NCBI GenBank assembly: GCA_037138755.1
Contig: JBAXHT010000001.1
Span: 1,087,805-1,151,804 of the forward strand
Source of the DNA: Armatimonadota bacterium
GTDB taxonomy: Bacteria > Armatimonadota > Fimbriimonadia > Fimbriimonadales > Fimbriimonadaceae
Direction of reading: 5' to 3'
DNA length: 64,000 nt
The notes beneath the pieces are model-generated. The model made no database searches, was not told where the DNA came from, and was given only the letters and a program-made list of their open reading frames with translations. Every line of letters starts with the position of its first letter. Positions within the stretch are counted from its first letter, which is position 1. A program made the translations under genes and the position numbers. This document shows, one piece after another, positions 26,625 to 44,769 of the stretch.

Positions 26625-26626
26625 AT

Positions 26627-27415
26627 TTGCCCACCATTCACCCCCTCGCATACGTTGACCCCAAGGCCGAAGTCGCTGCTGATGTTTACGTCGGTCCCTT
26701 TTGTAATGTGGAGGCTGGGGCCTCTTTGGGCGCGGGTTGTGTATTAGAGAGTCATGTCACTGTTCACAAGTGGACTTCGATCGGGCGGAACAACCGCTTT
26801 GGGCCTGGCACGGTAATTGGTGGCGACCCCCAAGATCGTAAGTACCACGGCGAACCGACATTCTTGCAGATCGGGGATAACAACATCTTCCGGGAGTACG
26901 TGACCATCCACCGGGCGGCCGGAGAAGGACGGTTCACGACGATTGGCAACGACGTTTTTGTGATGGCATACACCCACATCGGCCACAACTGCCACATCCA
27001 CGACCAGGTCACCATCACCAACTCGGCCGGGATAGCTGGCCACGTGACCATCGAGGAGAAGGCGAATATTGGCGGGATGGTTGGGATTCACCAGTTCTGC
27101 CGAGTCGGGAAGTCCTCCATGATTGGAGGATTTACCAAAGTGACCCGCGATGTTCCTCCCTTTTGCTTGGTTGAAGGCGCCGACGAAGCCGTTCGAGACA
27201 TTAACGCGGTTGGCTTACGCCGGCTTGGAGTGACTCAGGATGCTCGATTGGCTCTGCACAAGGCGGTGAAGCTCCTGTTTAAGAACAAGATTGGTTTGAC
27301 AAACGCGCTAGAACTCGTCCGAAACGAAGTTCCTCTGACCGAAGAAGTGAAGTACCTGATCGCCTTTGAGGAGCGCCGATTCCACGGTCGCAACGGCCGC
27401 GGCGACCAGCACTGA
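26627..27415 (+). CDS. lpxA: Acyl-[acyl-carrier-protein]--UDP-N-acetylglucosamine O-acyltransferase
   Basis: 262 aa. Hexapeptide repeats of a left-handed beta helix start at HPLAYVDPKAEVAADVYVG; the family pattern GDPQDRKYHGEPT, HIGHNCHIHD (catalytic His) and the C-terminal helical part are present. LpxA makes the first acyl transfer of lipid A. Start is TTG at 26627, supported by AAGGA with a 6-nt spacing and located 2 nt after the fabZ stop. Confidence 0.96.
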   Translation: MPTIHPLAYVDPKAEVAADVYVGPFCNVEAGASLGAGCVLESHVTVHKWTSIGRNNRFGPGTVIGGDPQDRKYHGEPTFLQIGDNNIFREYVTIHRAAGEGRFTTIGNDVFVMAYTHIGHNCHIHDQVTITNSAGIAGHVTIEEKANIGGMVGIHQFCRVGKSSMIGGFTKVTRDVPPFCLVEGADEAVRDINAVGLRRLGVTQDARLALHKAVKLLFKNKIGLTNALELVRNEVPLTEEVKYLIAFEERRFHGRNGRGDQH

Positions 27416-28491
27416 TGCGAATTTTTATCTCGGCTGGCGAAGCTTCCGGGGATCTGTATGGAGCGGCCTTGGCCGCCCGTTTGCTTCCTTTGGGATTTGA
27501 CGTTACCGGGCTAGGAGGATCCAGGATGGCGGCTTTGGGTCTGGCTCTCATTGGGGACTCTTCGCGCTGGGGATCCATCTCTGTTGTCCAGTCTGTGCGT
27601 GAAGGACTCCGAGGGATCGGTACGTATCGTCGACTAAAAGCATCCCTACAGGCTGGACCGCCGGGTGTGTTTGTCCCGATTGATTTTGGTTACATGAACC
27701 TTAGACTCTGCTGGTGGGCACGTGAAGCGGGTTGGAAGGTGCTCTATTTCATTCCGCCGGGGTCGTGGAGGCGGGATCGCCAGGGTGCCGATATTCCTCG
27801 GCTCGCGCATGAAGTGGTCACGAACTTCCCTTGGTCGGCGGAGTTGCTGTCAAAAATGGGAGCATCGTCCCATTTTTATGGACATCCTCTGTTAGAAATT
27901 CACTCAGAAGTGTTGAGATCTGATTTGCCACGCGCTGGGCTGGCGGTGTTACCCGGATCGCGAAGGTCGGAGTTAGAGCAACTTCTGCCGATTCTGTCCG
28001 TCGCGCTGTCGGACTATCCTGGCACGATTACACTTCCCGTTCCGCCTCGGCACATGGAGCTGGTTCGACGACTCTGGGCCCGCGGGTCGGATCAGATTAT
28101 TGATGGCTCGAAAGATGGAGCTGTCATGGGAACCCTCAAAAGTGCCGAGCGAGCGGTTGTCTGCTCAGGTACCGCCACGCTGGAAGCTGCCCTTGCCAAA
28201 ACGCCGATGGTGGTCGTTTATCGAGTTTCTAAAACCGTGGAGATCGAGACGAAACTGATTGGGTTCAAACGGCCAAAGTTCGTTAGCCAGCCGAACATCC
28301 TTTTGGAAAGGGAAGTAGTTCCGGAATTGATTCAAGAGGGGCTCACGATAGCCACCTTGCGTAACACCCTCGGAAATCTCGATGTAGGACGCCAACTCCA
28401 AGGCTTTGATGAAATCGAATCCCTCCTGTCGCCATCGACCTGCCTCACCCAAACCGTCGAGCTTATTCAAAAGCTCGCAGCTCAGGTGTGA
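27415..28491 (+). CDS. lpxB: Lipid-A-disaccharide synthase
   Basis: 358 aa. The start FISAGEASGDLYGAALAARL and LPGSRRSELEQLLPIL, then CSGTATLEAAL, match the GT19 family LpxB, which joins UDP-diacyl-glucosamine to lipid X. It is slightly shorter than the E. coli enzyme (382 aa). The FYGHPL segment is present. Its ATG overlaps the lpxA stop (ATGATG/TGATG). The 3' end overlaps argJ by 10 nt tail to tail. Confidence 0.93.
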   Translation: MRIFISAGEASGDLYGAALAARLLPLGFDVTGLGGSRMAALGLALIGDSSRWGSISVVQSVREGLRGIGTYRRLKASLQAGPPGVFVPIDFGYMNLRLCWWAREAGWKVLYFIPPGSWRRDRQGADIPRLAHEVVTNFPWSAELLSKMGASSHFYGHPLLEIHSEVLRSDLPRAGLAVLPGSRRSELEQLLPILSVALSDYPGTITLPVPPRHMELVRRLWARGSDQIIDGSKDGAVMGTLKSAERAVVCSGTATLEAALAKTPMVVVYRVSKTVEIETKLIGFKRPKFVSQPNILLEREVVPELIQEGLTIATLRNTLGNLDVGRQLQGFDEIESLLSPSTCLTQTVELIQKLAAQV

Positions 28492-29672
28492 TACTCGGCG
28501 TTGATTCGAACGTATCCGTACCCAAAATCGCAGGTGTAAATGGTCGCGGCTGCCCCTTCGCCCAGACGTAAATCGATGATGACATGATCGGCTTTCAGTG
28601 CGGTCGAAACCTTGGCTGGATCGAATTTCGTTGGTTCGCCTTTCTCGAACAACAAGTGGCGTTCGTCTCCGATTTCAAAGTGCAAGACTGCTTTGCTGAC
28701 GTCAAGAGGAACTCCACTCTTTCCGGTCGCCATAATCACGCGACCCCAGTTGGGATCGCATCCAAACATCGCAGTTTTGACAAGCGGCGAATCGGCAATA
28801 GATCGAGCAACTTGGGTGGGATTCTCAGTTCCCGTGACCCGAACTTCGATCAGCTTTGTTGCTCCTTCACCATCTTTTGCGACTTGCTTGGCGAGCTCGG
28901 TACAAACACGAGAGATGATTTCAACTGCTTCCGTTTCGCTGGGTTGGATGCCCGAGAGACCACTGGCGATGAGGATCACCATGTCGTTGGTGGAGGTATC
29001 CGAATCGACCGTCATGCAGTTGAAACTGACTCTATTCGCCTGAATGAGGATCGACTTGATATCGAGGTGGGATAGATCGAGGTCAGTGACCAGATAGCCG
29101 AGCATCGTCGCCATGTTCGGCGAGATCATTCCGCTACCTTTGCAAACCCCGTAGACAGATGCGTCTCCGTTAAGTTCCACTGGATTCTTTGGAGTTGAAA
29201 GAACGTTGGACCCCCAAGCGGCAGCGGCCCACTTTTCGACGAGGTCAGTCGTAAGAATGGCTTCGATGAAAGGCTTTGGGTCCCTGGAAAGCTTTTGGGC
29301 AGCATCGTGGATCCCCTTCTCGACCTTTTTCATGTCGAGCTGGTGACCAATGACCCCGGTGGATGCGACCGCAATTGCTCCATCGATGCCAACGGATTCT
29401 GCGACAAGCTGAGCCATGCGAGCGGTGTCCTTCGCGCCTTGCTCGCCCGTGGCGCAGTTTGCGTTTCCGCTGTTGACAACCAAGCCGCGCAGCGCTCCTT
29501 CGGCGAGAGCCGTCCTTGAGAAATCGACGCACGATGCCCGAAACTGGTTCGTCGTGAATACTCCGGCAGCCGGATAGTCCGCATCGCAAATGATGAGGCC
29601 CATGTCGTTCCGGCGGTTCTTGAGTCCGCATCGAACGCCGGCAAAACGGAAACCCTTTGGGATCAAGGCCAA
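28482..29672 (-). CDS. argJ: Bifunctional glutamate N-acetyltransferase/ornithine acetyltransferase
   Basis: 396 aa. The self-cleavage motif KGSGMISPNMATMLGYLVTD carries the nucleophile Thr; VVNSGNANCATG and the C-terminal DFGYGYVRINAEYHT are typical. ArgJ recycles the acetyl group from N-acetylornithine to glutamate in the cyclic arginine pathway. Start is TTG at 29672. It overlaps argC by 10 nt, so the order is argC-argJ. The 3' end overlaps the convergent lpxB by 10 nt. Confidence 0.95.
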   Translation of the reverse strand: MALIPKGFRFAGVRCGLKNRRNDMGLIICDADYPAAGVFTTNQFRASCVDFSRTALAEGALRGLVVNSGNANCATGEQGAKDTARMAQLVAESVGIDGAIAVASTGVIGHQLDMKKVEKGIHDAAQKLSRDPKPFIEAILTTDLVEKWAAAAWGSNVLSTPKNPVELNGDASVYGVCKGSGMISPNMATMLGYLVTDLDLSHLDIKSILIQANRVSFNCMTVDSDTSTNDMVILIASGLSGIQPSETEAVEIISRVCTELAKQVAKDGEGATKLIEVRVTGTENPTQVARSIADSPLVKTAMFGCDPNWGRVIMATGKSGVPLDVSKAVLHFEIGDERHLLFEKGEPTKFDPAKVSTALKADHVIIDLRLGEGAAATIYTCDFGYGYVRINAEYHT

Positions 29673-30661: not shown

Positions 30662-30685
30662 AAGGGAACGGGAATCGTACCCGTT

Positions 30686-32131
30686 TTAGGTTCCCCGATT
30701 CCCAATCGGCCCCGCTAGGCCACCACCACCGCCACCGCCGCCAGATTTGGCCGGGGGAATGTCGTCATCATCGGTCGTCGTGAGTTTGCCGTTACCCGTC
30801 TTGAACTCGAATTCGTCAACTCCCTCTTTGGTCACGATCGTCCCGGAGACACCGTACATCTCGTCGTCGAGAGAGTTCTTCATGATGACGTCCCTCTTGC
30901 CCGGCGCGCTGTCTAGCTTGAGGATTTCCTTCTCGTCGTCGTAGAAAGCTGAGTGCGCCCAGACGTAGCGCCACTCGCCTCCCGGAAGTTCCTGGCGAGC
31001 CTGGGGATTTCCGTTGATCTTCGCTCGACGTTCGCCCTTTTTGTACCAATACTCGATCTTTTCGGCAGTGATCGTAAGCGGATAGTCGCGAAGGTTTGAG
31101 CCGCTCCGGATCGTGTCTTCGCGCTTTTTCTGCGCCTCCGTATCCTTAGGCGCTGGTGGGCGATTCTTCGAGATCGAATCAGGGATTGCAGGCAACATTG
31201 GAGGAAGTGTGCCTTCGACGAGCTTATCGTTTTCCTGGGATTTTGGCTTCACTAGCATCGTGACACGTCCGGTGACCATCGCACGTTTTTCCTTGCGATA
31301 GACCACCACTTTGTCGGCGATCATGTTTGCCTTCTTGCCAAAGTATTTGACTTCGCCAGTGGCGGTCAGGATGTCCGTTTTGACTTCTCGTTTGATGTTT
31401 TTGGCGATGATGATGACCTCGCCGTCGGTTGCGCGAGCGTCGGTGAATACGTCAAATCCATCCTTTCGCCCGTAGGATTCATACTTGAACTCCCAGGATT
31501 TCTTGGTGTCTCCTGCCGGGAGTTCTGCTTGAGGAAGGTTGGCTAGGACGCCCTTCCATTCTCCTGCCCCGGTGCTGTACTCCTCCTTGTCCATGTTGTA
31601 CAGGAAGTTTGCGACCTTGAGGTCGCCGCCATACAGCTTTCCAGAAACCGGACGGGGAACTCTGAGAGTCTTGTTCGCCTCGTCGTAATTCAGCTCCTGT
31701 GAGGCGAGGTCGAACTTGGCTCCTTTGAGCTGAACTTTGCCGTCCAACACGAGTTGCTTGGCGTAGCCGTTCCAGTTTCCGCGCTCCGCGCTGAATTCGT
31801 AGAGAGCTTTCTTCCAGGTGAGCTGTCCCTTCGAAACTCCAACAAAGTCGTACATCTGCCGATTCTGGGCAATGCTCATCTCTTTGACGAAACACTTTGC
31901 GGCAGGCTGATTGGGCTCGACGCGGGTGAAGTCGGTCTCCTTCATAAAGACGGCCACGTTGGAAGGAAGTTCGTTCTTGATCGGTGTCTTATACGGAGCA
32001 AGTGCGTCGACGTTGAGGATTTGACGGGTGCCATTGTATACGCCAAACCCTGCTCCTCCCAGCAAAGCGAGGAAAAGCAGACTTCGGAGGGCTTTCCGGT
32101 TAGTTGAGGGTTGCGTCGGCACGGATGACAT
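30686..32131 (-). CDS. Large LptA/OstA-like envelope protein with Gly-rich tail
   Basis: 481 aa from the ATG at 32131, chosen because it places a basic N-terminus before a single membrane helix (LRSLLFLALLGGAGFGVY); a longer frame lies within the upstream gene. The periplasmic part has OstA-like strand repeats (LDGKVQLKGAKFDLAS, ILTATGEVKYFGKKANMIADKV, MVTGRVTML). The end is acidic followed by a run of nine Gly. Architecture of one anchor plus several jellyroll units fits an LptC-LptA-like bridge component. It is separate from the lpt operon at 7-9 kb and sits in the envelope array. The start overlaps the upstream gene by 32 nt. Confidence 0.75.
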   Translation of the reverse strand: MSSVPTQPSTNRKALRSLLFLALLGGAGFGVYNGTRQILNVDALAPYKTPIKNELPSNVAVFMKETDFTRVEPNQPAAKCFVKEMSIAQNRQMYDFVGVSKGQLTWKKALYEFSAERGNWNGYAKQLVLDGKVQLKGAKFDLASQELNYDEANKTLRVPRPVSGKLYGGDLKVANFLYNMDKEEYSTGAGEWKGVLANLPQAELPAGDTKKSWEFKYESYGRKDGFDVFTDARATDGEVIIIAKNIKREVKTDILTATGEVKYFGKKANMIADKVVVYRKEKRAMVTGRVTMLVKPKSQENDKLVEGTLPPMLPAIPDSISKNRPPAPKDTEAQKKREDTIRSGSNLRDYPLTITAEKIEYWYKKGERRAKINGNPQARQELPGGEWRYVWAHSAFYDDEKEILKLDSAPGKRDVIMKNSLDDEMYGVSGTIVTKEGVDEFEFKTGNGKLTTTDDDDIPPAKSGGGGGGGGLAGPIGNRGT

Positions 32132-32972
32132 CAGAGCTACTACTAAGTGTGACGTTCTGAGCAGGCGCGGTGAGCGCACCATTTTGAAATTCAATGCGAT
32201 AAGTGGCCGCATCAACCCAGAATTGGTAACGAGCATCTGTCCCAACCGTGAAACGCCGCACAACGGTTCCTCCCGAGTTCTTCAGGGTGACGATCGTTCC
32301 GTTCGCAGACCCGCTCGGGGTGATGATGCCCCAGATATTGAACGGCAATCCCGGAGGGGTGTCGCTGTCCAGCGGTGTCATCAGGATTTCGCCGACGTCA
32401 ACGACCCCTGAAATCGCAAGATTCCCATTCGGAGTGAACTCGTTGCTGAAGAAGTTGTTCGCCGCAACTTGACCGACGAGCCCGAGGAAACTCGCCGTGT
32501 TTGTATTCGAGTAAGCGACGTTCGGGATGCTAAACGTTCCGTTGCTTGCCGACGTACCGGATTGGCCCGCAAAGGCGATCTTTGCTCCGGCAATCACTCC
32601 GCTTGTGGCAGCGTTTCGGATCGTGCCGCGAAGCGTCACCTTCTGCGGCCCAACCCAGAGGTCGCCGACGTCGCTAACCTTCTGAGTTTGAGCAGGGAAC
32701 ACGAAGTCAAATATGGGGTAGCCGAGCGACGATGGCGCAAGGACAGTCACTCCGGTGGCTCCACTCGGAGCGGCTACCGTAAATGAGCCGTCAGCTACAG
32801 CGGTATTGGCGTTTGCCGCAGATGTCTGTACGGATGCCGGGCTGCTAAACGGTGCTCCTGTGTCGACATTGAGAACGCGTCCAGTTAAGGTGATGTTTGA
32901 AGCTGGGGGCCCTCCTCCACCGCACGCTATGAGCGTCAAGAGGAGTAAAAGAGCGAAGAAGCGACCGATCAT
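32100..32972 (-). CDS. Lipoprotein with carboxypeptidase regulatory-like domains
   Basis: 290 aa. Lipoprotein signal with Cys in LLTLIACGGGG. Then two to three beta-sandwich repeats starting TLTGRVLNVDTGAPF, TLRGTIRNAATSGVI and an IWGIITPSGSANGTIV segment, the pattern of CarboxypepD_reg-like domains common in surface and secreted proteins. Overlaps the 913-aa gene by 4 nt. Likely part of the outer-membrane/surface array. Confidence 0.8.
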   Translation of the reverse strand: MIGRFFALLLLLTLIACGGGGPPASNITLTGRVLNVDTGAPFSSPASVQTSAANANTAVADGSFTVAAPSGATGVTVLAPSSLGYPIFDFVFPAQTQKVSDVGDLWVGPQKVTLRGTIRNAATSGVIAGAKIAFAGQSGTSASNGTFSIPNVAYSNTNTASFLGLVGQVAANNFFSNEFTPNGNLAISGVVDVGEILMTPLDSDTPPGLPFNIWGIITPSGSANGTIVTLKNSGGTVVRRFTVGTDARYQFWVDAATYRIEFQNGALTAPAQNVTLSSSSDVIRADATLN

Positions 32973-35710
32973 CGCACACCTCGCACTGTGACATCAAAGC
33001 TTGCGGTGGTTCCCGTGGCCACAAACGCCATAGTGAGCCGGGTCGCCCCAGTAGTCGCGGATGCTCCCGACGAGACGTTCCGGGCGGTGACCTGAGTCCA
33101 ACGACCCTGAACTTGGTCAATCACGAAGGTGTACGTTTTGCCTTTTACGAGCCCGTCCATGCTCATGCGGTAGGTAGCAGAAGCCGAGTAAGGGAGGTAT
33201 TCGAGATATCGTTTATCATTTGCGGGCGAGAGGGCGGAAATCTGCATCCCTCCAATTGCGGGCGGAAGGTTGCTGTCCCACCGCGCATCGAATCCTGTTG
33301 TGGCCGCAGCCGACATTCCGAAGAAAACCGCACTTTGCTCTGCTTTACCGAACAACGACGCTCGGAAGGTGCTGGATTGCACAGCCGCTCGGGGAGCTCT
33401 AGAGCCACGAGACCCGCTGGCTTGTGATCCGAAGAGCATCACCGCACCTTCCGGAGCCAGGCACCGAACAAAGTAGCCGATGCCTGGAGCAAACTGAGTC
33501 GCGGCGGCGAACGATCCCCCTTCGGGCAAGCCAGTGACTCCGTCGGACGCTCCGGGAACAAATTGGAATGCGATCTTGCCCAATATTGGAGCCGAGGAAT
33601 CCTCAGGATCATTTCCGCTTGCGGCGATGTACGAGAGTGGGAATCCAGTTGTACGAACGACCTGGACACTACTGAAAGCGCAGGCTGAACCGAGCGGGTT
33701 TGCGATCAGGTTCCATCCTGGTCTCAACGCCACCCCGAGGGAGTCACCAACTTCGACCCGAGCGGCTATGTTCGGATTTTGAAGTGTGCCCGTTCGGACG
33801 AAGTATCCCTGTCCTCCAGCAACCAGGCCGGTGACCGGGTACAGATCGTACTTTGCTTTCGATGGATTGTAACGCGCTCCGAGAAACGCCGTCGAGCCTA
33901 GGGAGTCGGCAAGATCTGACATCAAAGGATCGCCGGAGAGCCCGACCATCACGAGGCCACCAGGGAGTCCGTTCGGGAATCCGATTGCGGAAACGGGAGC
34001 CGCACCGAGGGTCACTCCGAGAGCTCCGATCGACTTGTTCACTTTTCTGGTGAGAATCGTCGTTGGAGTTCCACCGGCATCTTTTCGAACGACGGTGATC
34101 GTCACTTGACGGGCAGCTCGAAAGTTTGCCGTCCCGATCTGGCGCCCAAACGCAAACCTGCTGACCGGAATGTCGTTCACGGATTCAGAACCGTAAGAAA
34201 TGTTGACGAACAGGTTCGTTCCAACCGGTTGACCGACGCCTACGATAGTGCCGTAGAAATCGGAAACTGAAGTCGTCGGCGTGGCAATGGCACCAGCCGG
34301 TACATAGAGCCGGGTCAGCTTGTCCTGTACTGGAATGTCGATTGCGACCCGGTACGCATTGCCTGCATTCTCGTTGGCAAAGTTGGGAGCAACGCTTCCG
34401 TAAGAACCAGCGATGTCAAGCCGCTCGCTCTGAGCGCTGGCTAGAATGCGGTTGTAATCTTTGTCCCAAAACAGCGGATAGCTCGTTCCGGAGAGCAGGG
34501 TTTCGTTGCCGTTGGCCGCGGTCTCGAACCACGCAGTCTCGATTCCGAAGACTCCGAAGTCGGTTCCGGCAAGCCCGTCGGTGATCGCAAAAATAGTCGT
34601 GTGGAGCTTGGTGCCTTGTGTCAGCTTGGTTTGCAACACGCCTTGCTCTCGCATCCAAGATGCAAAAGGAGTCCCCTCGATGGTTCCTCCTGGTGAGATT
34701 GATTCCAGGGTGCTGACGGCAAGATTCTGAAGGTTCACCGCATTTGTCGCGGCCGAAGGATTTGCCTTGATCGCGAAGTTCAGGTCTTTTGCAAAGGTCG
34801 GGTACTCAAGAAGCACCTTCGCCCAAGTCGAACCCGCCATACGGTACCGGGTTAAAAATAGCCCACCAAGATTTCCGCCTGTTATGGGTGCCGAAAGGAG
34901 GTTGTTGGCGATGAACTGAGGTCCACCCAACGACTTCTGGTTGAGCCAATCATAATCCGCTCCAACATCGTAGCTGTTGGCAAGCACGTCGACAACCGTT
35001 GCCTGATCCAAGGTTGGAACTGCGGCTGGAAGACGGCAGATTCGCATCGTCGTCGCTCGGACAAGTCCTTCGAGATAGGCATCAAAACCGTATGCTGGAT
35101 CCGGAAGATACGCTAGCAAGAGGCAGTGGATTAGGGCGACCGCCGCCACATCTCGGCTGGTGTTGAGCGGTAGCCGAATCTCGCGTCCTCCGGAGCCGTT
35201 GTTGGGCAGGTAGTAACCTCCAACGATCGCTTGACGGTCCCCGATTGTCGCGTCGAAGTTGACGACGTTAACGGTGCCGCTGATCGCAGCGGTTCCGAAC
35301 ATGGAATCCATCGTTGCCTTAGCGTTGTTGTAGACCGTCTGCATAAAGGCTGTGCGCCCGGAATCGATCGAGTTGAAGGTCGGATCAATGATAAGGGTGA
35401 GTCCATCAAGGACTCCTCGAGATTGCCCGCCCGTCGGCAACGGACGGCCATTCTGCATGATTCGCAGCACCGCCGGAACGATGTAGGGCTGCTTGTTTGA
35501 CTTGAATGCTTTCGCCCTTGCCGCTCGGTTTTGTGCCGTTAGCTCTGCATATTTCTGAACGTACTTGCCAAACATCGCGTCAGCCTGAGTGATCAGGGGT
35601 TCACGAGTAGTTGAGGCAAGATCGAGCTTCAGAAGGCTGGATTGCGAAAAAGCACTCGCCGCCCCAAGAAGGGCGGCGAGTACGGCAACGATCGGGCGCA
35701 CTGCTTTCAT
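32969..35710 (-). CDS. Large exported protein with degenerate zincin-like region
   Basis: 913 aa with a signal peptide (MKAVRPIVAVLAALLGAASAFS). Residues about 60-260 contain AVALIHCLLLAYLPDPAYGF (His195) and LEGLVRA (Glu214), which looks like a HExxH...E zincin with the Glu and second His replaced. The C-terminal part (about 560-780) has repeated strand patterns with GWNLIANP and two GYFVR segments (GQGYFVRTG, GIGYFVRCLAP). I do not recognise a named family. It lies between two lipoproteins in the envelope array. Probably cell-surface or periplasmic. Confidence 0.75.
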   Translation of the reverse strand: MKAVRPIVAVLAALLGAASAFSQSSLLKLDLASTTREPLITQADAMFGKYVQKYAELTAQNRAARAKAFKSNKQPYIVPAVLRIMQNGRPLPTGGQSRGVLDGLTLIIDPTFNSIDSGRTAFMQTVYNNAKATMDSMFGTAAISGTVNVVNFDATIGDRQAIVGGYYLPNNGSGGREIRLPLNTSRDVAAVALIHCLLLAYLPDPAYGFDAYLEGLVRATTMRICRLPAAVPTLDQATVVDVLANSYDVGADYDWLNQKSLGGPQFIANNLLSAPITGGNLGGLFLTRYRMAGSTWAKVLLEYPTFAKDLNFAIKANPSAATNAVNLQNLAVSTLESISPGGTIEGTPFASWMREQGVLQTKLTQGTKLHTTIFAITDGLAGTDFGVFGIETAWFETAANGNETLLSGTSYPLFWDKDYNRILASAQSERLDIAGSYGSVAPNFANENAGNAYRVAIDIPVQDKLTRLYVPAGAIATPTTSVSDFYGTIVGVGQPVGTNLFVNISYGSESVNDIPVSRFAFGRQIGTANFRAARQVTITVVRKDAGGTPTTILTRKVNKSIGALGVTLGAAPVSAIGFPNGLPGGLVMVGLSGDPLMSDLADSLGSTAFLGARYNPSKAKYDLYPVTGLVAGGQGYFVRTGTLQNPNIAARVEVGDSLGVALRPGWNLIANPLGSACAFSSVQVVRTTGFPLSYIAASGNDPEDSSAPILGKIAFQFVPGASDGVTGLPEGGSFAAATQFAPGIGYFVRCLAPEGAVMLFGSQASGSRGSRAPRAAVQSSTFRASLFGKAEQSAVFFGMSAAATTGFDARWDSNLPPAIGGMQISALSPANDKRYLEYLPYSASATYRMSMDGLVKGKTYTFVIDQVQGRWTQVTARNVSSGASATTGATRLTMAFVATGTTASFDVTVRGVR

Positions 35711-35723
35711 GAGATTTGCTAGG

Positions 35724-37040
35724 TTACGGAGCTACAAACGATCCGACCGCGCTGAGAGTTCGGGCAGAATCGTTCGAGTTGGCTCCCATGACGATGTAGT
35801 AGTAGCGCTGTCCGGAAGACAGCGGAGTAAGGTTGTAGGTCCAAGACGTTCCGGTCGCGGGAGTGTTGAAGTTATTGGCGTACGACGTCACCCGGACTCC
35901 TGGGTATTCCGAGAAGACGTAGACCGTGTAGTTTGACGCACCGTTGACGGCTTGCCAGTTGAAGTTCACCTGTCCGCCACCGGTGCTCACGTTGTTCACG
36001 TACATGTCTGCCAGGGGAGTGACCGAAACCGTAGCGCTAAAATCGCCTTTCGAGTTATCGGTGTTTGGGTAGTTCGAGTTTCCACCCGCCACGGCATAGG
36101 TGTAGGCAAGGTTTTCTCGAAGCTCGGAGTCGCTGTCGAGATAGCTCTCCGACAGCGGATCCCGAAGGAAGTCAATTCCCGACCAGTCTCCGCTACCCCG
36201 TTTTCGCCAAACTTCGTAGCCAAGGATGTTAAGCGAGTCGAACTTATCCCAGAACAGTTGGACTTCGACGGCATTGCCGTTAGCAGTTACTCGGGTTGGT
36301 GAAGGTTTGTAGCGAGCATCGATGAACTTTTTGATGTTGGCTTGAGCCGCCGCCGCAACTCGGTCGCGTGAGACTTCACTCGGAGACGTCCACGCAACGG
36401 CCGAGAGGTTGGTTGGAGCGGGTATGACGCCATCGCTGGAGTTCTGTAACGTGAAGTTCTGAACCAGTGCAACCCCGGCGGTGGGAACCCGAGCGACATC
36501 CGTTGACCGGAAGCCCGAGAAGCTCGCCATGACCTGGTAGCTCACCCCGCTTTGAAGGCCGTTGAGATAGTAGTTGCCGTTGGAGTCGGTGATCGTCTGG
36601 ACTGTCGCGAATTGAGATCCGCTGGTTGGCTTAGCGGTGATCCTAGCACCTTGGACGCGCACGCCGCGAGTTGACTCCGAAACTCCGCCTTGGATGGCGG
36701 CGACTTGGCTGATCGGCATGACAACGACGTTCATGCTTTGCGAATTCTCGTTGGCGTACACCTGCGCAAAGTTTTCGCCATAAAAGGTCGTTGAATTCTT
36801 GACGATTGTTGCCCTGACGTTGACGTTGTCAGCAACGACTCCGGTCAGCGAGAACGACCCCGAAGAGTTGGAAACCGTCTCTCGAATCGGCGAGTTATCG
36901 ACATAGACCCGGGCACCTCGGACGGGGTTACCATCTGTATCGAGGACGAGGCCGGATATGCTGCCGGTTTGGGTTGTTCCGCCGCCGCACGCAATCAGCG
37001 TGAGGGCAAGAATTCCAAATGCAATCTGCGAAGATTTCAT
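35724..37040 (-). CDS. Lipoprotein with CarboxypepD_reg-like and fibronectin III-like domains
   Basis: 438 aa from the ATG at 37040, which gives a lipoprotein signal (MKSSQIAFGILALTLIACGGG). Two regulatory-type sandwiches follow (GSISGLVLDTDGNPVRGARV and IQGGVSESTRGVRVQGARI), then FN3-like strands (PAPTNLSAVAW..., VQLFWDKFDSLNILGYEVW, VNFNWQAVNGASNYTVYVF). It probably sits at the outer membrane or surface. It is 31 bp behind the large barrel gene, suggesting the two act together. Confidence 0.8.
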   Translation of the reverse strand: MKSSQIAFGILALTLIACGGGTTQTGSISGLVLDTDGNPVRGARVYVDNSPIRETVSNSSGSFSLTGVVADNVNVRATIVKNSTTFYGENFAQVYANENSQSMNVVVMPISQVAAIQGGVSESTRGVRVQGARITAKPTSGSQFATVQTITDSNGNYYLNGLQSGVSYQVMASFSGFRSTDVARVPTAGVALVQNFTLQNSSDGVIPAPTNLSAVAWTSPSEVSRDRVAAAAQANIKKFIDARYKPSPTRVTANGNAVEVQLFWDKFDSLNILGYEVWRKRGSGDWSGIDFLRDPLSESYLDSDSELRENLAYTYAVAGGNSNYPNTDNSKGDFSATVSVTPLADMYVNNVSTGGGQVNFNWQAVNGASNYTVYVFSEYPGVRVTSYANNFNTPATGTSWTYNLTPLSSGQRYYYIVMGANSNDSARTLSAVGSFVAP

Positions 37041-37071
37041 GTTGTTGATACGTTTGACGACAAGAATCACT

Positions 37072-39630
37072 TCATCGCCGAGATGAAAAATCAAATGTGA
37101 GTTCCAAGCTCAGTCCGTTTGACCTAAATGCTCCCGCCGTGTCGTTCGGATCAAGGTTCACAAGGTCTCTAAAAGTATAGCGACCAGTCAAGGCAATTCC
37201 ACTGATTAGCTGATAAGAATATCCGGCGTTGAGGCTGATATCGTCTTGGGGAAAGAACCCTCGAGTGTTGCTCAGTATCGCGTTGAGAAACAATCGTTGA
37301 CGATCGTTGATCCGGTATCCCGCGCCAAAGGAGCCATTGAGGCTGCTCTGGGCAAAACTTCCTCCGCTCGAATCAGTGAGGTTGTAACCAAGATTGAACG
37401 ACCAAAATCGACCGGGCGATGTATTGTAGTTGAAATCAATCGAGCTTGAACTTGACGTCGGCGTGCTTCCGCTGAGGAAGCTCGTGTTCGACCTGGACCA
37501 ATCTAAGTTAAAATTTGAGACGTCATTGGGTCGCCACGACATCCCCAAAACCAGGGTCTTCAAATCCGCGTTGCTGGTGCTCAATCCTTCACTGTTCTGT
37601 TGGATGAGGCCAAAGTTGAGCAGCATGTTTTCTTTCACTTGGTGCGACCCCGTTAAAGAGAACCGGCGACTGCGCAGTTGCCCCGTGCTTACCGTGTCAG
37701 TGCCGGTCGAGAAGCCATTGTTTCCGAATCCGAACCCGTTGCCGTTGGTTAGGCCCAGCGAGGCGAGAGTGCCGGAATCGCTCAGAGCGTATACCAGGGA
37801 GCCGCTCCATGGTCCAGTGTCTAAGAGATTCGCCCCGAACGAGTAGTCGTATCCCAACGAACTCTCATCTTCAGTCTTTATTGCACTTTGGCTCGCGCTT
37901 GCGGTGAGCCTCAGTTTAGAGCTGGCATCGTATCCGACAGTTGTGCGAAACGTGTTGACCCCGAAATCTTGGAGCTTGTTGCTGATTCGGCTGCGTCCGT
38001 CCTGCTTTTCGACTTCGGCAGTGACGTTGAGCTTTTTGTAGCGGTACTCATCGCCGAAGCCTAGAGTGCGGAGAATGTTGCTCTCTGTGGCTTCGCTGCT
38101 AGTTCGTGCATAGCGGAGTGACTGTCGGTGATTTACGTTTCGCTTTCGGTTGTTCGGGTCGCTGTACTCAAGTTCGATGCGATCGTCGACAACCCGAGTC
38201 GAGCCTCTTGGTGCGCCAGTCGAGTTGTCAAAGGTTGTGACCGAAGTGTTGTATGTTCCAACCCTGCTCGTGAGTCCCTTCGTGAAATAGTCAAGTCCAT
38301 ACTGAACGCGATCCTCGTTGCGATTAAAGCCCGTTTGTTCGATGGACGAGAAACCTGGTTCAATTTTTTTGACCTGAGCGGTGAAGGCACCCTTGCCTTC
38401 GTCGATTTTGAGGTCGTAGCCGGTTGCGATTCCGCTGTTGGGATTGAGTCCTCTCACCAGACCAGACGCCTGGGAAAACTTGATGTAGGTTGTCTTCGAT
38501 CCAGGTGCAAAGACCGTGTAGTCGAGGCCGGTTACCTGCCTATCGCCGCTAGCAGTCTGAATCACTTTCGGACGGTAGGAGAAAATGATTTCTTGGGTCG
38601 TCGGAATCGCAATCCTCGAGATGATCAGGATTGGAAGTCGGGGATCCAAGTAGAAGTCAGAGATGCCGTCATCAAGAACCGAGAAGGTTCTCGGTATTCC
38701 GTTGACGGTGATTCTGATCGTCGCCTTCTCAGGCTCGAACTGCAGGTAATACTGGTCGCCAGGCCGGCCGAAGCCAAATGACTTTTCCTCGCGAATTGAG
38801 TTCGAGTTCGAGTCGCCCGTGAGCTGCTCGACGCTAGTGAATCCCAAACGCCCTGCCCAACCCAGGTCATAGGTAAACCCCGTACCTCGAATCGAACCTC
38901 TCTGTCCGCCAAAGTCAAAACTCTCGTAGCTCGCGTTGATCGTGCTGGTGGGAGCAATAACTTTGTTTAAGAAGGTGATCGTGCCAAGCTGGTTATCCGC
39001 AACATAGTCTTGGCCGACCACTTGGGGCTTGCCATCAACCTGGACTTGCAGGGAATCACTAATGATTCTTCCGGTTTGTAGATAGAACGGTCCGCTGGTG
39101 TTGTTTCCTTCGACGGTGATGGTCCGGGCCGCTCCTCGGGCGTCGGAACTGATGAAGCGTCCGTCAAATCGGCCTTTCTTGAATCCACCGGAGAACCCAT
39201 CGAGCGAACGGTTAAAGCTAACAAACTGGTTGCCTCCCGTCAAGCTAGCCCTAATGGTTCCGTAGTTTAGGTCCAGCCCACCTCGCTTATAGTTTAGAAG
39301 CGTTCGTTGCTGTTCAGGGTCGCTGAAGCGGTTGTCGGTGAATTGCGCATCAAAGCTGACGAAGTCGAACAGTTTGTCGGCACGAACGGTGATGTTCCCC
39401 GTGTCCGAAAAGGTCTGTAATCCCGTGCCAAAGTTTGTGAGAGCATTAAAGCTCTCGGCGTCACCTTCAAACCGAAACTGGTGAAATCCTAGAGTTCGTT
39501 GTCCGGACCATTGAAGTCGGTTCAGCACGTTCTTTTGGAACCAGCTTTGCTGGCCCAGACTCATTTCCTGCTGCTGGGCAGAAGCAAGCGCGCAGGTTGT
39601 CCCGAGCGCCATAACGGCGAATCGCTTCAT
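37072..39630 (-). CDS. Large outer-membrane beta-barrel protein
   Basis: 852 aa with signal peptide (cleavage about ALASAQ). About residues 60-190 are barrel-like strands; about 195-245 hold VGQDYVADNQLGTITFLNKV and INASYES, a motif of the type repeated in SprA-like translocons and related large barrels; residues 250-852 are alternating amphipathic strands (LRLTASASQSA, SLNGSFGAGYRINDRQRLFL) ending in a Phe-containing strand (LSLELTFDFSSRR). No TonB box or plug recognised. Function unknown; a secretion or surface-assembly porin is plausible. It lies 6 bp behind csaB. Confidence 0.8.
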   Translation of the reverse strand: MKRFAVMALGTTCALASAQQQEMSLGQQSWFQKNVLNRLQWSGQRTLGFHQFRFEGDAESFNALTNFGTGLQTFSDTGNITVRADKLFDFVSFDAQFTDNRFSDPEQQRTLLNYKRGGLDLNYGTIRASLTGGNQFVSFNRSLDGFSGGFKKGRFDGRFISSDARGAARTITVEGNNTSGPFYLQTGRIISDSLQVQVDGKPQVVGQDYVADNQLGTITFLNKVIAPTSTINASYESFDFGGQRGSIRGTGFTYDLGWAGRLGFTSVEQLTGDSNSNSIREEKSFGFGRPGDQYYLQFEPEKATIRITVNGIPRTFSVLDDGISDFYLDPRLPILIISRIAIPTTQEIIFSYRPKVIQTASGDRQVTGLDYTVFAPGSKTTYIKFSQASGLVRGLNPNSGIATGYDLKIDEGKGAFTAQVKKIEPGFSSIEQTGFNRNEDRVQYGLDYFTKGLTSRVGTYNTSVTTFDNSTGAPRGSTRVVDDRIELEYSDPNNRKRNVNHRQSLRYARTSSEATESNILRTLGFGDEYRYKKLNVTAEVEKQDGRSRISNKLQDFGVNTFRTTVGYDASSKLRLTASASQSAIKTEDESSLGYDYSFGANLLDTGPWSGSLVYALSDSGTLASLGLTNGNGFGFGNNGFSTGTDTVSTGQLRSRRFSLTGSHQVKENMLLNFGLIQQNSEGLSTSNADLKTLVLGMSWRPNDVSNFNLDWSRSNTSFLSGSTPTSSSSSIDFNYNTSPGRFWSFNLGYNLTDSSGGSFAQSSLNGSFGAGYRINDRQRLFLNAILSNTRGFFPQDDISLNAGYSYQLISGIALTGRYTFRDLVNLDPNDTAGAFRSNGLSLELTFDFSSRR

Positions 39631-39636
39631 GAGGGT

Positions 39637-40698
39637 TTATCGCAGAATTTCGTTGGCGAGTTCGACACTTTTCATCGCTTCCGCCAGAAGCACTTTGCGC
39701 TGCTTTTCGACGATGGGCCGCATCTTGTCCATGTTCTTATGATGCGTTCTAAATGAGTCAAACAAGCGTTGGGGAGTCAAACTTTCCAGCGGAAGTGCGG
39801 CCCCGATGTCCAGTTGCCGTGCAAATGCCGTCACTTTCGGGTCGTAGCTTATCATGATGGGTGGTACGCCAACCGTCGCCGCCAGAATTCCCGCATGAAG
39901 ACGCATCGCAATGACTGCTTCCATTCTTGCGAACCTCAGTTGACTCATTCGAGGCGTTCCAAGACGTTTGATCTCGGGAATTCGTCCACCCTGCTGTTTG
40001 GAGATTGCCGATATGAGGGGGCCGTCCTCGTGGGAATCCATCTCGATCAGGTTAGGGGCATACCCGGCTTGGTACAGCAACCGGCAAGTCTCGCCGAATA
40101 GTGTCACAACATCCACTCCTTTGCGTACTGCTGGTCGAGGAGCAATCGCGACGGAGGGCATCCCGCCGACTTGGTATTTTCCTTCGTCGCCATCTCGGAT
40201 GGGTTCCGTCATGAGGAACGCACTATCCGCAGCTAAATGAACTTTCTTCTGAATCCCGATTTCTCTGAGGACGGTCAACGAACCAGGATCTCGGACAGTG
40301 ATGAGATCGGCTGCCGAAAACGCGGCAAAAGCCTGTTTCCTGGCGATCCAAGATTTGAGGGGCCCCACACCTTGCCCGAGAAAGATCACCTTCTTGCCGT
40401 GCTTCTTCGCGATCTTGACGATGCCGTTGTAATAAATCGTGCTTTTGGCGCTGGTCACGTCCTGGAAAATTGAGCCGCCAGGGAAGATCACCGCGTCGGA
40501 CTCTTTGATGACGCTATCCGTCAATCGAGCATCGCGACGGTCGATTGCCCGGATCCCAAAGTTCTGATTCGACTCTGAGGGACTGCCGCTCATGATTGTG
40601 TAATCATGGTCACCAAGGCGGTCCATGACACCAAGCATGACCGCATCGTCGCCAAGGTTGCCGCACCCCAGATAGCCCGCCATCACGATCTTAGCCAT
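39637..40698 (-). CDS. csaB: Polysaccharide pyruvyl transferase CsaB
   Basis: 353 aa. The opening VMAGYLGCGNLGDDAVMLGVM and AMRLHAGILAATVGVPPIMISYDPKV match CsaB. In Gram-positive and Thermus-type envelopes CsaB adds ketal pyruvate to the secondary cell-wall polymer, the ligand of SLH domains in S-layer and outer-envelope proteins. Its presence predicts pyruvylated glycan and SLH proteins in this species. It overlaps DUF5693 by 8 nt; this csaB-DUF5693 pairing is seen in other genomes. Confidence 0.9.
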   Translation of the reverse strand: MAKIVMAGYLGCGNLGDDAVMLGVMDRLGDHDYTIMSGSPSESNQNFGIRAIDRRDARLTDSVIKESDAVIFPGGSIFQDVTSAKSTIYYNGIVKIAKKHGKKVIFLGQGVGPLKSWIARKQAFAAFSAADLITVRDPGSLTVLREIGIQKKVHLAADSAFLMTEPIRDGDEGKYQVGGMPSVAIAPRPAVRKGVDVVTLFGETCRLLYQAGYAPNLIEMDSHEDGPLISAISKQQGGRIPEIKRLGTPRMSQLRFARMEAVIAMRLHAGILAATVGVPPIMISYDPKVTAFARQLDIGAALPLESLTPQRLFDSFRTHHKNMDKMRPIVEKQRKVLLAEAMKSVELANEILR

Positions 40699-42562
40699 TC
40701 AAAATCTCCATCTGCTTCACCAAGAACTTTTGCACCACTAGCCAAACGATCTGTCCAACGATTCCGCCCAGTATGATTCCTTCAATGTTTCGGATCACTG
40801 AAGTCATCACCGGGGTGTGGAGGTGGCACATCGTGTTGACGACATCGGTGAGACCAACCACTCCGAGCATCAGTAACAATGAAACCCACCCTCGCATCTT
40901 GCCGAGCTGAGCCGAATCGTAGTGCGCCTTGTGAAGCATCGCAAGCCCCACGAAGAGCGCAGGGAACGCGAGAAGGAACTCCTTTGAGCGGGGCCGGACG
41001 GGAAGGAGCTGTTCTAGCAATCCTCGGAAGGCGAGTTCACCGCCACTGACCGTGTTAGGGTTGTCGTTTCCAGTCCGCAGGATCATCAAGCCGATGATCG
41101 CCATGATGACCAGCCCGGTGACCGCCGCTCCCCAAGTGATTGGGTCTTTCAGAGCATCTTTGAGGCTGTTCAGCTTTGCGAATCCGATAACGCCAAGGAT
41201 CAGCACCGGCAGGAAAACGGAAATCTTGACTCCGGGAAACGTCTCGGCTCGAATGTAGTATTCAACTCCATTGAGTAGCCCGGCAACGCACATCCCTGAA
41301 ACCATTGCGAGCAGCGCACTAGTGATCAGACCGATCCAGGGCGCTAGCTTTGATTCAAGCATGAAGAAAAATGCGCCACAAGGGAAAACGAGCGATGCCA
41401 TCAGAGCGGCGAGTTGTAGAGCGGTTCCCTCGCGAGTCGAACCAAGGAAGATCGCGAGTCCGCCGAGCCCTCCGACGATGAGGCCCCGATTATCGCCAAG
41501 AAGTCTCACCCCGACCCAAACGGCTCCAATTCCCGAGAGAAGGCCGATCAACATCTTGACTGTCTTGGGTACGCCGGGTTCTTGATACGGCTGAGGTTGC
41601 CCCTCTTTGAGGCCCTCGGCTTGAAGTTGATAGCTGATGGTCTGAATGAATTCGCCAAACGTCGTTATCGGGGCATCGGAAGCGTTGCTAATTCCCCTCA
41701 AGAGAAGAATCCGCATGTTTCGCTCTCGGGCAGCCTTTCGGAACCTTTCGATGGCGCTATCCAAGCTTAGTTTGTCAAGCTCAGCGGCTTGGGCTGAGTG
41801 CAAACGAACAGTTTGGTCGCCGACTTTCCCGAGCATTTCAACGTCGCCTCCGAGCTTTGCGAATTCGGGCGATGCATAAAGGAGTCCTGTCGACTGGAGA
41901 GTCGACACCGTGGCGTCCATCGCGTTGCGCCGACCAAGCACCTGCTCTCCTTGAGCAAGGAAGATTGTTGCCCCCATCTCTTTTGCCCACTCGAGGGTCG
42001 CGATGACTGCTTTGGAAGTCACACCTGGAGGGTTGGCGCATCGGGCAATGATTCCAAGGCCGTTTTCCTTAGCGAGCCGGGTGACCAAAGGATCTAGCCC
42101 AATCGCCGTTGATCGGAGGGACCCAGTGTCCACCGGAGGTAGCGCAAGCCGGCGGTCCCGGGGCACGACGGTCTTTACGAGTTCGCCAAACCGAATTCCC
42201 ATGCCACGCGTGACCCGCTTAACCGTCTCTTCGTCTGCAAACAGAAGCGACCGAACTTGATCTTTGGAGGCGACAGTCACCCCAGTCAGTTCTGCCCGAC
42301 CATCCGAAATGAGTTCACCGATGGTCTCTTCGGGAACGACAAGACCGTTCAGTCCCTTCGTCTTCAGTTCCTTGATTCCCTGTTCCAAAGTCATGCCTTG
42401 GGCGGCAGAGTAAGACTGGATGGTGTCGACCTCCGCAGCAAACATCACGTACTGGTTGGCATTTTCAACCTGGATTCTCTTGCTGATCGAAAAAGCGCAA
42501 ACTAGCGCGGTGAGGATCGCGATAGCGACGAAGGAAATCTGCGAATCGGTGAACTTCTTCAT
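40691..42562 (-). CDS. DUF5693-family polytopic membrane protein
   Basis: 623 aa. One N-terminal helix (about residues 9-28), a periplasmic domain of about 300 aa with alpha/beta pattern (AQGMTLEQGIKELKTKGLNGL; GLGIIARCANPPG; GATIFLAQGEQVLG), and at least eight helices from about 335 on. The whole matches DUF5693, unknown function, often next to csaB. Likely it works in export or modification of the pyruvylated surface polymer, which is inference. Overlaps both neighbours (8 and 4 nt). Confidence 0.82.
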   Translation of the reverse strand: MKKFTDSQISFVAIAILTALVCAFSISKRIQVENANQYVMFAAEVDTIQSYSAAQGMTLEQGIKELKTKGLNGLVVPEETIGELISDGRAELTGVTVASKDQVRSLLFADEETVKRVTRGMGIRFGELVKTVVPRDRRLALPPVDTGSLRSTAIGLDPLVTRLAKENGLGIIARCANPPGVTSKAVIATLEWAKEMGATIFLAQGEQVLGRRNAMDATVSTLQSTGLLYASPEFAKLGGDVEMLGKVGDQTVRLHSAQAAELDKLSLDSAIERFRKAARERNMRILLLRGISNASDAPITTFGEFIQTISYQLQAEGLKEGQPQPYQEPGVPKTVKMLIGLLSGIGAVWVGVRLLGDNRGLIVGGLGGLAIFLGSTREGTALQLAALMASLVFPCGAFFFMLESKLAPWIGLITSALLAMVSGMCVAGLLNGVEYYIRAETFPGVKISVFLPVLILGVIGFAKLNSLKDALKDPITWGAAVTGLVIMAIIGLMILRTGNDNPNTVSGGELAFRGLLEQLLPVRPRSKEFLLAFPALFVGLAMLHKAHYDSAQLGKMRGWVSLLLMLGVVGLTDVVNTMCHLHTPVMTSVIRNIEGIILGGIVGQIVWLVVQKFLVKQMEILNG

Positions 42563-43242
42563 GACGCGTCGTCGTCAAGCTCAATCAGTTCGGGGTGCTC
42601 GCGTAGAATCGCCGTCCTACCCCCGATGACAAGCACAGTTAACATACCAGCTAAGAACCCGCCCGCGTGCGCCCAAGTAGCCACGCCTTCCTGCGGAACA
42701 AAGATCTGATACAGGAACCACGCCCCGAGAAGAAGCCAAGCTCGCAGTTCCCACTCAAGCCAGCCGAGGAGCGAAATAATGATTCGATTCGAAGGAAAGA
42801 GCAAAAAGAAGCAACCCAAAACACCACCAATCGCCCCGCTTGCCCCAAGAGTCGGGACGTTTCGATAAGGAGCGGCATAGATGTGACAAGCTGAAGCAAA
42901 GATTCCCCATGCCAAGTAGTAAAGGGGGAACCGCCAGGCACCGACTGCTTGCTCAACTGGGGGTCCAAACACGCCAAGGAACATCACGTTTGTGGCGAGA
43001 TGCATCAGGCCTCCGTGCAGGAACATTGAGGTGAAGAGAGTGACAATCGGGAACCTGTCCGATCCGCCCTGGAGAGCTGAAATGACCTCGGGAGCCCGGA
43101 GCGAAAGGTCGCCGTACACAATGCTGGGCCCAAAGAGTCCGCCCCTCCGGTCTGCGATGTAGATCACGATATTCAACAAAATGAGCATCCAGGTAATCAC
43201 CGGGACTTGCTCTTTCTGCTGTTCGGCGTCGCGCGGGGCCAC
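42559..43242 (-). CDS. Rhomboid-family intramembrane serine protease
   Basis: 227 aa with six hydrophobic helices. Key residues are visible: FLHGGLMHLATNVMF (oxyanion helix), the catalytic Ser in TLGASGAIGGVLG and the catalytic His in WAHAGGFLAG. Rhomboids cleave substrates within the membrane. The substrate is unknown; surface proteins of this array are candidates. It overlaps DUF5693 by 4 nt and is 15 bp behind the sugar permease. Confidence 0.93.
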   Translation of the reverse strand: MAPRDAEQQKEQVPVITWMLILLNIVIYIADRRGGLFGPSIVYGDLSLRAPEVISALQGGSDRFPIVTLFTSMFLHGGLMHLATNVMFLGVFGPPVEQAVGAWRFPLYYLAWGIFASACHIYAAPYRNVPTLGASGAIGGVLGCFFLLFPSNRIIISLLGWLEWELRAWLLLGAWFLYQIFVPQEGVATWAHAGGFLAGMLTVLVIGGRTAILREHPELIELDDDAS

Positions 43243-43257
43243 CCGAAGATTGTACTG

Positions 43258-44769
43258 CTACCGGTCGCCAGGGATGACGATTCCCTTCATGATGACCCGT
43301 TGGGCAAACAGGAACACGAGGAGTGTTGGCAGTGCTGCAAGCGCAAGGGCTGCCATGACGACAGCCTTGGGTGCCGTCGTCTGAAGCTGATAAACCCAAA
43401 CCATCAGCGTCCACATCCTCTGATCTTGGGCGACCAGGAACGCGAACATGAATGTGCTGTAGCTCGCCATGAACGCCATGAGCGCGAGGTAGCCGAGAAC
43501 GGGCTTTGTCAGCGGGATTGCGATTCGAGCCAAAAGCGTCGTCTCAGGGGCCCCGTCAAGCTGCCCTGCCTCAAACAGTTCGGTAGGCAGTGAGTCGAAG
43601 AAGCCCTTCAGGAGGAAGATCATGTATCCGCTCGCCATTCCAGGCAGGACTAACGCTGCGAAGGTATTCAGTAGGTGCAAGTCCTTGAGCAACAAGAACG
43701 ACGGGATCATCGCGACTTCAGCGGGGAATGCCATTGTCGCAAGCAGGAAGAGAAGAATCTTCCCCGACGCTTTGATCGGGTACCGCGATAGCGCGTAGGC
43801 GGCAAGAGGATTCACAACGAGTTGAGTCAGTATCGCGAGTCCGCAAAAGATGATCGTGTTGAGAACTGCCCGACCGTTGATAAGGATGTAGTCCAGAACG
43901 TAGCGGAAGTTTCGCCCGGCGAACTCTTGTTTGATCTTGCTGGCGTTTGACGAAACGAAATCCTTCTCTGCCGCCGCGATCGGCATCGGCCCCGTATGCG
44001 AAGCCGTCCAAAGCTCTTCGGCGGTGCCGTTCTGGTACCGCTCGGGAAGCTGCTTCATGTAGAGCGGATCGGATGGCTTAGTGATGATTGTCTCAAACGA
44101 TTTCGCTGCACCCTTCAGATCTGCGGGAACATCGTCAATCCGGTTTTTGTATGTCGTTCGTAGATACTCTTGCCACAAACGAGTGGTGCGAACGGGAATC
44201 CGATATTCGGCAGGCAATGTCTTCTTGAACTCGAGCCAATCGCTGTATCTCTGAGCGGCGAGCGGCTCCCAGGTAGCCCGTTCTAACTGCTCGGTGGGCG
44301 GTTGAACGGTTTGAAAGGCGACGTTCTCCTCGATGTAAGCCTTGTTAAGTTCTTCGATGGAAGCAAACTTCGTGCGGAGCCATGTTTGATAACGCTGAGT
44401 CACCCGGCTCGTGACCTGGTTCGGGGCGAGGCGAAATCCAGCCGTCCACATATCGTTCGGCAGGGCCATCAGGAAACGATCATATTCGGCGACGTCTCCT
44501 TCATCGCCGATCCGGGTCGAGCCAATCATCTCCAAATTCCCCGCGTACTTATCGTCCACGTACTTGCTCAGCAGCTCGTTAGAGTCAGAGACATAAACGG
44601 GAACAACGGAGGTATCGTTTTGGTCGGTAGGACCCTTGAGTCCGGTGCTGACCATCAGCAGGAACGGATAAACCGTGGTGAGCGCACCAAGCGTGAGAAG
44701 GAGATAGAGGAACCCCATTGCGAACCTGGCGCGTGGACGCTTGCGACCGACTTGGCTCACGAGGCTCAT
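43258..44769 (-). CDS. MalG-type carbohydrate ABC transporter permease with large periplasmic insertion
   Basis: 503 aa, against about 280 for the family. TM1 (about residues 17-40) is followed by about 240 extra residues before the remaining five helices. The EAA-type loop is present in the second half (ELFEAGQLDGAPETTLLARIAIPLTKPVL). The insertion is hydrophilic and holds YQTWLRTKFASIEELNKAY, similar in look to a segment of some glycoside hydrolases. No MalF partner, binding protein or ATPase is adjacent; upstream is the divergent flagellin gene. Confidence 0.88.
   Translation of the reverse strand: MSLVSQVGRKRPRARFAMGFLYLLLTLGALTTVYPFLLMVSTGLKGPTDQNDTSVVPVYVSDSNELLSKYVDDKYAGNLEMIGSTRIGDEGDVAEYDRFLMALPNDMWTAGFRLAPNQVTSRVTQRYQTWLRTKFASIEELNKAYIEENVAFQTVQPPTEQLERATWEPLAAQRYSDWLEFKKTLPAEYRIPVRTTRLWQEYLRTTYKNRIDDVPADLKGAAKSFETIITKPSDPLYMKQLPERYQNGTAEELWTASHTGPMPIAAAEKDFVSSNASKIKQEFAGRNFRYVLDYILINGRAVLNTIIFCGLAILTQLVVNPLAAYALSRYPIKASGKILLFLLATMAFPAEVAMIPSFLLLKDLHLLNTFAALVLPGMASGYMIFLLKGFFDSLPTELFEAGQLDGAPETTLLARIAIPLTKPVLGYLALMAFMASYSTFMFAFLVAQDQRMWTLMVWVYQLQTTAPKAVVMAALALAALPTLLVFLFAQRVIMKGIVIPGDR

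Follow-up and report, generated by a model that had tools for sequence, protein, structure and literature searches.

Which of the envelope genes that lie side by side in a bacterium of the phylum Armatimonadota belong together, and what do they do? In the window analysed here, a stretch of 64,000 nucleotides (64 kb) of contig JBAXHT010000001.1 from a member of the family Fimbriimonadaceae, 11 open reading frames (ORFs) follow one another on the minus strand at 28482-44769, and a first-pass annotation had proposed that they encode a single machine that exports, modifies and anchors a surface layer. Comparison across the phylum shows that the conserved unit consists of eight genes, from a rhomboid gene to a fused lptC-lptA gene (about 30686-43242), whose order is conserved far beyond chance. 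Two of the eight, encoding a giant beta-barrel and a 913-amino-acid (aa) exported protein (hereafter 913), are kept or lost together. We consider it highly probable that these genes form one conserved envelope locus with three modules; for the complete explanation, in which a role is also assigned to each module, the chances seem to us evenly balanced.

An eight-gene envelope locus

Signal peptides and lipoboxes are readable in the translations of the array, and its features up to the lptC-lptA gene are as follows:

43258-44769, minus strand: sugar permease (BPD_transp_1, UgpE-like; Pfam)
42559-43242, minus strand: rhomboid intramembrane protease, 227 aa (PF01694, 5.2e-29)
40691-42562, minus strand: DUF5693 membrane protein, 623 aa (PF18949, 6.2e-108)
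39637-40698, minus strand: CsaB polysaccharide pyruvyl transferase, 353 aa (TIGR03609)
37072-39630, minus strand: giant outer-membrane beta-barrel, 852 aa, as predicted by an AlphaFold2 (AF2) model; no Pfam match
35724-37040, minus strand: lipoprotein, 438 aa, with two CarboxypepD_reg and FN3-like domains (PF13620, 3.3e-18; lipobox LTLIAC)
35652-35683, minus strand: terminator-like hairpin with T-run, within the signal-peptide codons with which the 913 gene begins
32969-35710, minus strand: 913, an exported protein with a predicted inactive M1-type fold and immunoglobulin (Ig)-like domains (structure alignment; no Pfam match)
32100-32972, minus strand: lipoprotein, 290 aa, with a CarboxypepD_reg-like domain (weak PF13715; lipobox LTLIAC)
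30686-32131, minus strand: LptC-LptA fusion, 481 aa (PF06835, PF03968)

Profile searches identified the BPD_transp_1 permease, rhomboid, DUF5693, CsaB, the CarboxypepD_reg lipoproteins, LptC with LptD_N/LptA, and argC, and argJ was called from its sequence alone; the gene identities of the first-pass annotation hold. The ORFs and a recount of the gaps (15, -4, -8, 6, 31, 13, -4, -32, 24 and -10 bp, with 37040 and 32131 taken as the likeliest starts of the 438-aa lipoprotein and the 481-aa fusion) likewise bear out its 11 minus-strand genes spaced by -32 to +31 bp.

We searched 121 Armatimonadota genomes for the barrel, fetched 20-kb neighbourhoods and analysed them by tblastn and iterated profiles; the broad barrel alignment proved too divergent for the genome scan, and a closer alignment was used. 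The order rhomboid-DUF5693-csaB-barrel-lipoprotein-913-lipoprotein-LptC/A is kept in the window's family, recurs whole or mostly in other families at about 25-35% identity (loci L062, L063, L065, L069 and L080) and is seen by the genome scan in Fimbriimonadales and other Armatimonadota. In Fimbriimonadales, and in several families besides, the gene immediately upstream of DUF5693 is the rhomboid gene; some distant loci have an M48-TPR protein at its position (L063). The 438-aa lipoprotein has an equivalent position in relatives, the 290-aa lipoprotein keeps its place between 913 and Lpt, and distant families carry LptC and LptA as two separate genes at the equivalent position. Because this order is kept in relatives, the lipoproteins and the Lpt bridge belong to the locus, as had been supposed.

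By contrast, outside the nearest species (L032, L127 and L128, with the permease in L033 too) the permease and argC/argJ do not flank the locus. These three are therefore neighbours and not parts: the gene neighbourhoods of relatives rule them out as components, and the 11-gene system of the first-pass annotation contracts to a conserved envelope locus of eight. In one relative a PEP-CTERM protein is encoded between permease and rhomboid (L033:3718-4590). The window's own permease carries a long insertion, at about residues 50-290, ahead of its Pfam-matched transmembrane domain, and a flagellin gene (44858-46303, plus strand) lies divergent from the array beside a MiaB-like radical SAM gene.

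Linkage inside the locus can be counted pair by pair. csaB and the barrel lie within 2.5 kb of each other in 45 of 79 genomes; for barrel and 913, at a limit of 4 kb, the count is 34 of 79. The weak LptA profile matches in 29 genomes, and in 24 of these 913 and LptA are no more than 6 kb apart, a count that includes the window's own genome, added by hand. Some families place the barrel beside csaB and 913 beside Lpt at another site. Two families that lack barrel and 913 (f6 and f17) show the order rhomboid-DUF5693-csaB-CarboxypepD lipoprotein-LptC-LptA (L187, L188), with a similar locus that has no lipoprotein call in L189; the link between csaB and Lpt is therefore independent of the barrel. 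csaB and LptA lie within 4 kb in 10 genomes without barrel and 913. A PHROGs search gave no match, and our literature search found nothing on csaB with lptA in Armatimonadota and, in agreement with the first-pass annotation, no named system with this gene set.

Probable genes for outer-membrane tethering and lipopolysaccharide transport

DUF5693 occurs in 118 and csaB in 119 of the 121 genomes, and the two lie no more than 1 kb apart in 97 of the 114 genomes having both; CsaB is the firm genetic partner of DUF5693, a family for which our literature search found no paper naming it. The window's CsaB scores 224.3 bits against TIGR03609, over the curated cut-off of 213.1, and its rhomboid protein has the catalytic serine (GASG) and histidine in its sequence and reaches 23 bits against the rhombosortase model TIGR03902, below the 84-bit cut-off. 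In Deinococcus-Thermus and Cyanobacteria, a pyruvylated wall polymer is bound by the SLH domains of OmpM-type porins (PMC10628300), the outer membrane loses its attachment in csaB mutants of Thermus (PMC6282519), and SlpA/OmpM-like proteins have been reported from Armatimonadetes (PMC9388160). SLH-domain proteins, which the first-pass annotation had suggested seeking elsewhere, are present in 116 of the 121 genomes, the window's included. That genome encodes a 640-aa SLH protein (SLH, 3.2e-13) with a TR[YE] motif, whose coiled coil and strand-rich C terminus, read from sequence only, suggest the OmpM/SlpA plan. The csaB part of the locus would most simply serve outer-membrane tethering through SLH-porins: module 1 (rhomboid, DUF5693 and CsaB) would make or modify a pyruvylated wall polymer, and the SLH domains of OmpM-type porins would bind this polymer and so tether the outer membrane to the wall. 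One SLH-rich family, f19 (G023, G036, G047, G071, G078 and G091), has 28-53 SLH matches in each genome against 1-6 in most genomes, and is without barrel and 913.

The LptC-LptA fusion consists of an N-terminal membrane anchor, an LptC-like and then an LptA-like domain, both recognized by narrow margins (PF06835, 24.3 bits, cut-off 21; PF03968, 23.8 bits, cut-off 20.4). Adjoining the array, fabZ, lpxA and lpxB (26142-28491, convergent with argJ) show that the region belongs to a genome that makes lipopolysaccharide (LPS), and LpxB is present in 118 of the 121 genomes. By its domains, the Lpt part of the locus would most simply serve LPS transport, with module 2 (LptC-LptA) acting as an inner-membrane-anchored bridge that carries LPS.

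The position of the barrel, next to LptC/LptA and the fabZ-lpxA-lpxB group, might suggest that it is the LPS translocon itself, barrel and lipoprotein replacing LptDE in the Lpt pathway, and the scarcity of the LptD family PF04453, which matches just 1 of the 121 genomes, and weakly, would suit such a substitution; diderm Firmicutes have likewise been reported to be without a recognizable LptD (PMC5007114). However, a relative (L184) encodes a 781-aa LptD-like protein with an LptA-like N-terminal domain (PF03968, 21.7 bits, cut-off 20.4), and its orthologue is present elsewhere in the window's genome (G000:C1:1932355-1934583, E 1.4e-159). Because this separate LptD-like gene exists, we rejected the barrel as LptD. 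Neither the barrel nor any of 24 homologues matches LptD_N or PF04453 in Pfam, and nearly all of the 35 genomes that lack barrel and 913 keep LpxB, a gene so near to universal that it provides no contrast for co-occurrence of the barrel with LPS. We regard a barrel that substitutes for LptD as very unlikely.

Co-retention and folds of the barrel and 913

The barrel is present in 82 of the 121 genomes, and the 913 profile matches at full length or nearly so in 83. Both occur in 79 genomes and neither in 35; the 7 discordant cases are three with only the barrel, all fragmented or less complete assemblies, and four with only 913 (Fisher 2e-22, uncorrected for genome kinship). Tallied by family, 23 have both, 11 neither and 1 only 913. 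The two genes are kept or lost together, as the first-pass annotation had expected, and this co-retention persists where they lie far apart (families f4, f8 and f24). One genome of the window's genus (G114, 5.23 Mb) is without barrel and 913 and keeps rhomboid-DUF5693-csaB; its relatives keep both. The locus as a whole is no inseparable machine: in 35 genomes DUF5693-csaB is present with both barrel and 913 missing, and the modules are split in some families. Modules that come apart in several families would also be expected if the genes were mere neighbours with an inherited order and no functional tie. This we think highly improbable, since the order survives at about 25% identity across deeply diverged families, and barrel and 913 are co-retained though unlinked and were jointly lost in G114.

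The AF2 model of the barrel, built with 36 homologues in the alignment (mean predicted local distance difference test score 81.5), has 36 strands of at least 8 residues, counted from the DSSP list, and a pair of small inserted modules in the stretch from strand 8 to strand 12. In VIA-align, SprA (6h3i) ranks top by both Z (18.4) and aligned length (630 residues, at a root-mean-square deviation (rmsd) of 9.4); porins align over about 290 residues at Z about 15-17. The top Foldseek ranks are held by Mtr, SlpA and SprA, the last described as a 36-strand barrel (PMC10994853). The SprA-associated model TIGR04189 matches the window barrel (3.1e-5, 21 bits), where SprA-like modules lie at about residues 182-268 and, by eye, 294-355, and it matches 21 of 25 barrel homologues (best 2e-21), in which the module of about 85 residues is present in one to three copies. 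To judge from the model, the barrel would be SprA-like in build, and at most a candidate for membership of the type IX secretion system (T9SS). A search for the GldM/PorM motor gave no match in the 121 genomes, and control genomes gave no match either. In family f4, a second protein of about 1175 aa with an SprA-like module is encoded apart from the barrel (for example G003:C60:74689 and G075:C3:264858).

Residues 42-360 or so of 913 align with the M1 aminopeptidase fold (Z 11-12.8, rmsd 3.6-3.9, about 220 residues). The HExxH position reads HLMLH, HCLLLA, MLVLNA and the like in homologues, and the catalytic glutamate is absent from its second position in every homologue that has the domain, which marks 913 as a predicted inactivated M1-peptidase fold followed by Ig-like domains. 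When the whole protein is compared by Foldseek, mostly unspecific Ig chains fill the ranks. About 420 aa from the C-terminal part of 913 recur in other families at the C termini of several giant exported proteins, whose last domain is of FlgD_ig type with weak TIGR04183/PorU similarity, resembling T9SS sorting domains; one such paralogue has S-layer-like similarity. The loci L196, L197, L198, L199 and L200 show several of these giant proteins per genome (about 900-1800 aa), clustered and near polA-like and coaE-like genes. The hairpin at 35652-35683, a possible attenuator, keeps its stem in L127 and L128 with compensatory changes. Of 29 starts of 913 genes, 7 have a similar element; among barrel, csaB and DUF5693 genes, 3 of 130 starts do.

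From fold, co-retention and gene company, we tentatively read module 3 (barrel, 913 and CarboxypepD lipoproteins) as an apparatus for export or assembly at the outer membrane. In this membrane the barrel would be a wide SprA-like conduit, and 913 and the lipoproteins would act at its mouth as an adaptor; alternatively, 913 would be the cargo. Of the proposed surface-layer function at most export would remain, and for the barrel/913 part alone, which fits an export machine by its SprA resemblance; the csaB and Lpt parts are most simply accounted for by tethering and LPS transport. Possible, if more doubtful, is a second lineage of SprA-type translocons in Armatimonadota, in which a compact 36-strand conduit, a dead M1-peptidase protein and lipoproteins, perhaps exporting giant proteins with the C-terminal region of 913, would be encoded in a locus that also makes a tether and an LPS bridge.

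Several observations weigh against such an export apparatus and against the three-module explanation around it. Sequence similarity to SprA is restricted to the modules of about 85 residues, and TIGR04189 scores (21 bits in the window, no more than 75 in seven homologues) stay far below the 200-bit equivalog cut-off. Barrel profiles retrieve no SprA or other relevant chain from PDB sequences, SprA superposes at a high rmsd, and large barrels look alike. The 913 of the window's clade is without the terminal Ig domain (the profile ends at 904 of 989). Gene linkage is broken in many families, and the 35 genomes without barrel and 913 carry CsaB and nearly all carry LpxB, which means that neither the tether nor LPS depends on module 3.

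Two other roles for module 3 are serious rivals to export. The porin alignments, the carbohydrate-associated Ig folds of the adjoining lipoproteins and the alignment of the 913 Ig region with starch-binding-type domains would suit a substrate-specific uptake porin with 913 and the lipoproteins as surface substrate binders, similar to SusCD. Yet the barrel, with 36 long strands in its model, is much larger than uptake barrels of 16-22 strands, Pfam searches give neither a TonB plug nor a SusD match, and most families link the barrel to Lpt/CsaB genes and not to sugar enzymes; an uptake porin appears unlikely. A large, exported, Ig-rich 913, and giant exported paralogues with its C-terminal region, one of them S-layer-like, might instead indicate that module 3 builds a surface structure, be it an S-layer, a sheath or a fibre, for which 913 would supply the structural subunit and the barrel would serve as exporter or anchor. 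However, each genome has a single full-length 913, with a conserved pseudo-peptidase domain, which suits a component of a machine better than the repeating unit of a lattice, and we judge a structural role rather improbable.

The Armatimonadota, a deep-branching diderm phylum, gain a defined envelope locus in which genes for outer-membrane tethering and LPS transport are genetically coupled, a coupling relevant to the origin and loss of the outer membrane in Terrabacteria. The barrel and 913 families, undescribed in the literature and libraries searched, occur in two thirds of the phylum, and if the barrel is an SprA-type translocon, this type of channel would not be restricted to Bacteroidota.

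Comparison with known systems

The components are of known kinds, and the barrel/913 pair is new. Module 1 resembles the CsaB/SLH tether of Thermus-Deinococcus and Cyanobacteria (OmpM/SlpA type) in csaB, in an SLH-porin with TR[YE] and in its diderm Terrabacteria setting; it differs in that the linked neighbours of csaB in Armatimonadota include DUF5693, rhomboid, Lpt genes and barrel/913, and pyruvylation here is predicted. Module 2 shares LptC- and LptA-like domains and an inner-membrane anchor with the Lpt pathway, the domains being fused here and separate in other families, but lptCA of Armatimonadota sits with csaB and barrel/913, and the LptD-like gene lies elsewhere in the genome.

Module 3 is most like SprA/Sov of the Bacteroidota T9SS: like SprA, the predicted barrel is a large single chain, with about 36 strands by DSSP in its model, SprA is its best structural match, and modules of about 85 residues with the pattern VDG...DY...G.I.F are common to the two. 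A further T9SS likeness, an FlgD/C-terminal-domain-like Ig domain at the C terminus, is found in relatives of 913 and not in the window's 913. The barrel has 852 aa against about 2400 aa in SprA, its sequence likeness is limited to the modules, and it belongs to another phylum and has other gene neighbours. In fold, the M1-like part of 913 matches M1 aminopeptidases and their inactive relatives such as TAF2, whereas 913 homologues are without the catalytic glutamate, have Ig-like domains attached and are exported. As a whole, the locus recalls the outer-membrane cluster of Negativicutes and Halanaerobiales (Antunes 2016), in which one region likewise joins outer-membrane anchoring to Lpt/LPS genes; there the region contains OmpM, BamA and lpx genes, and in Armatimonadota it contains csaB-DUF5693, the barrel and 913.

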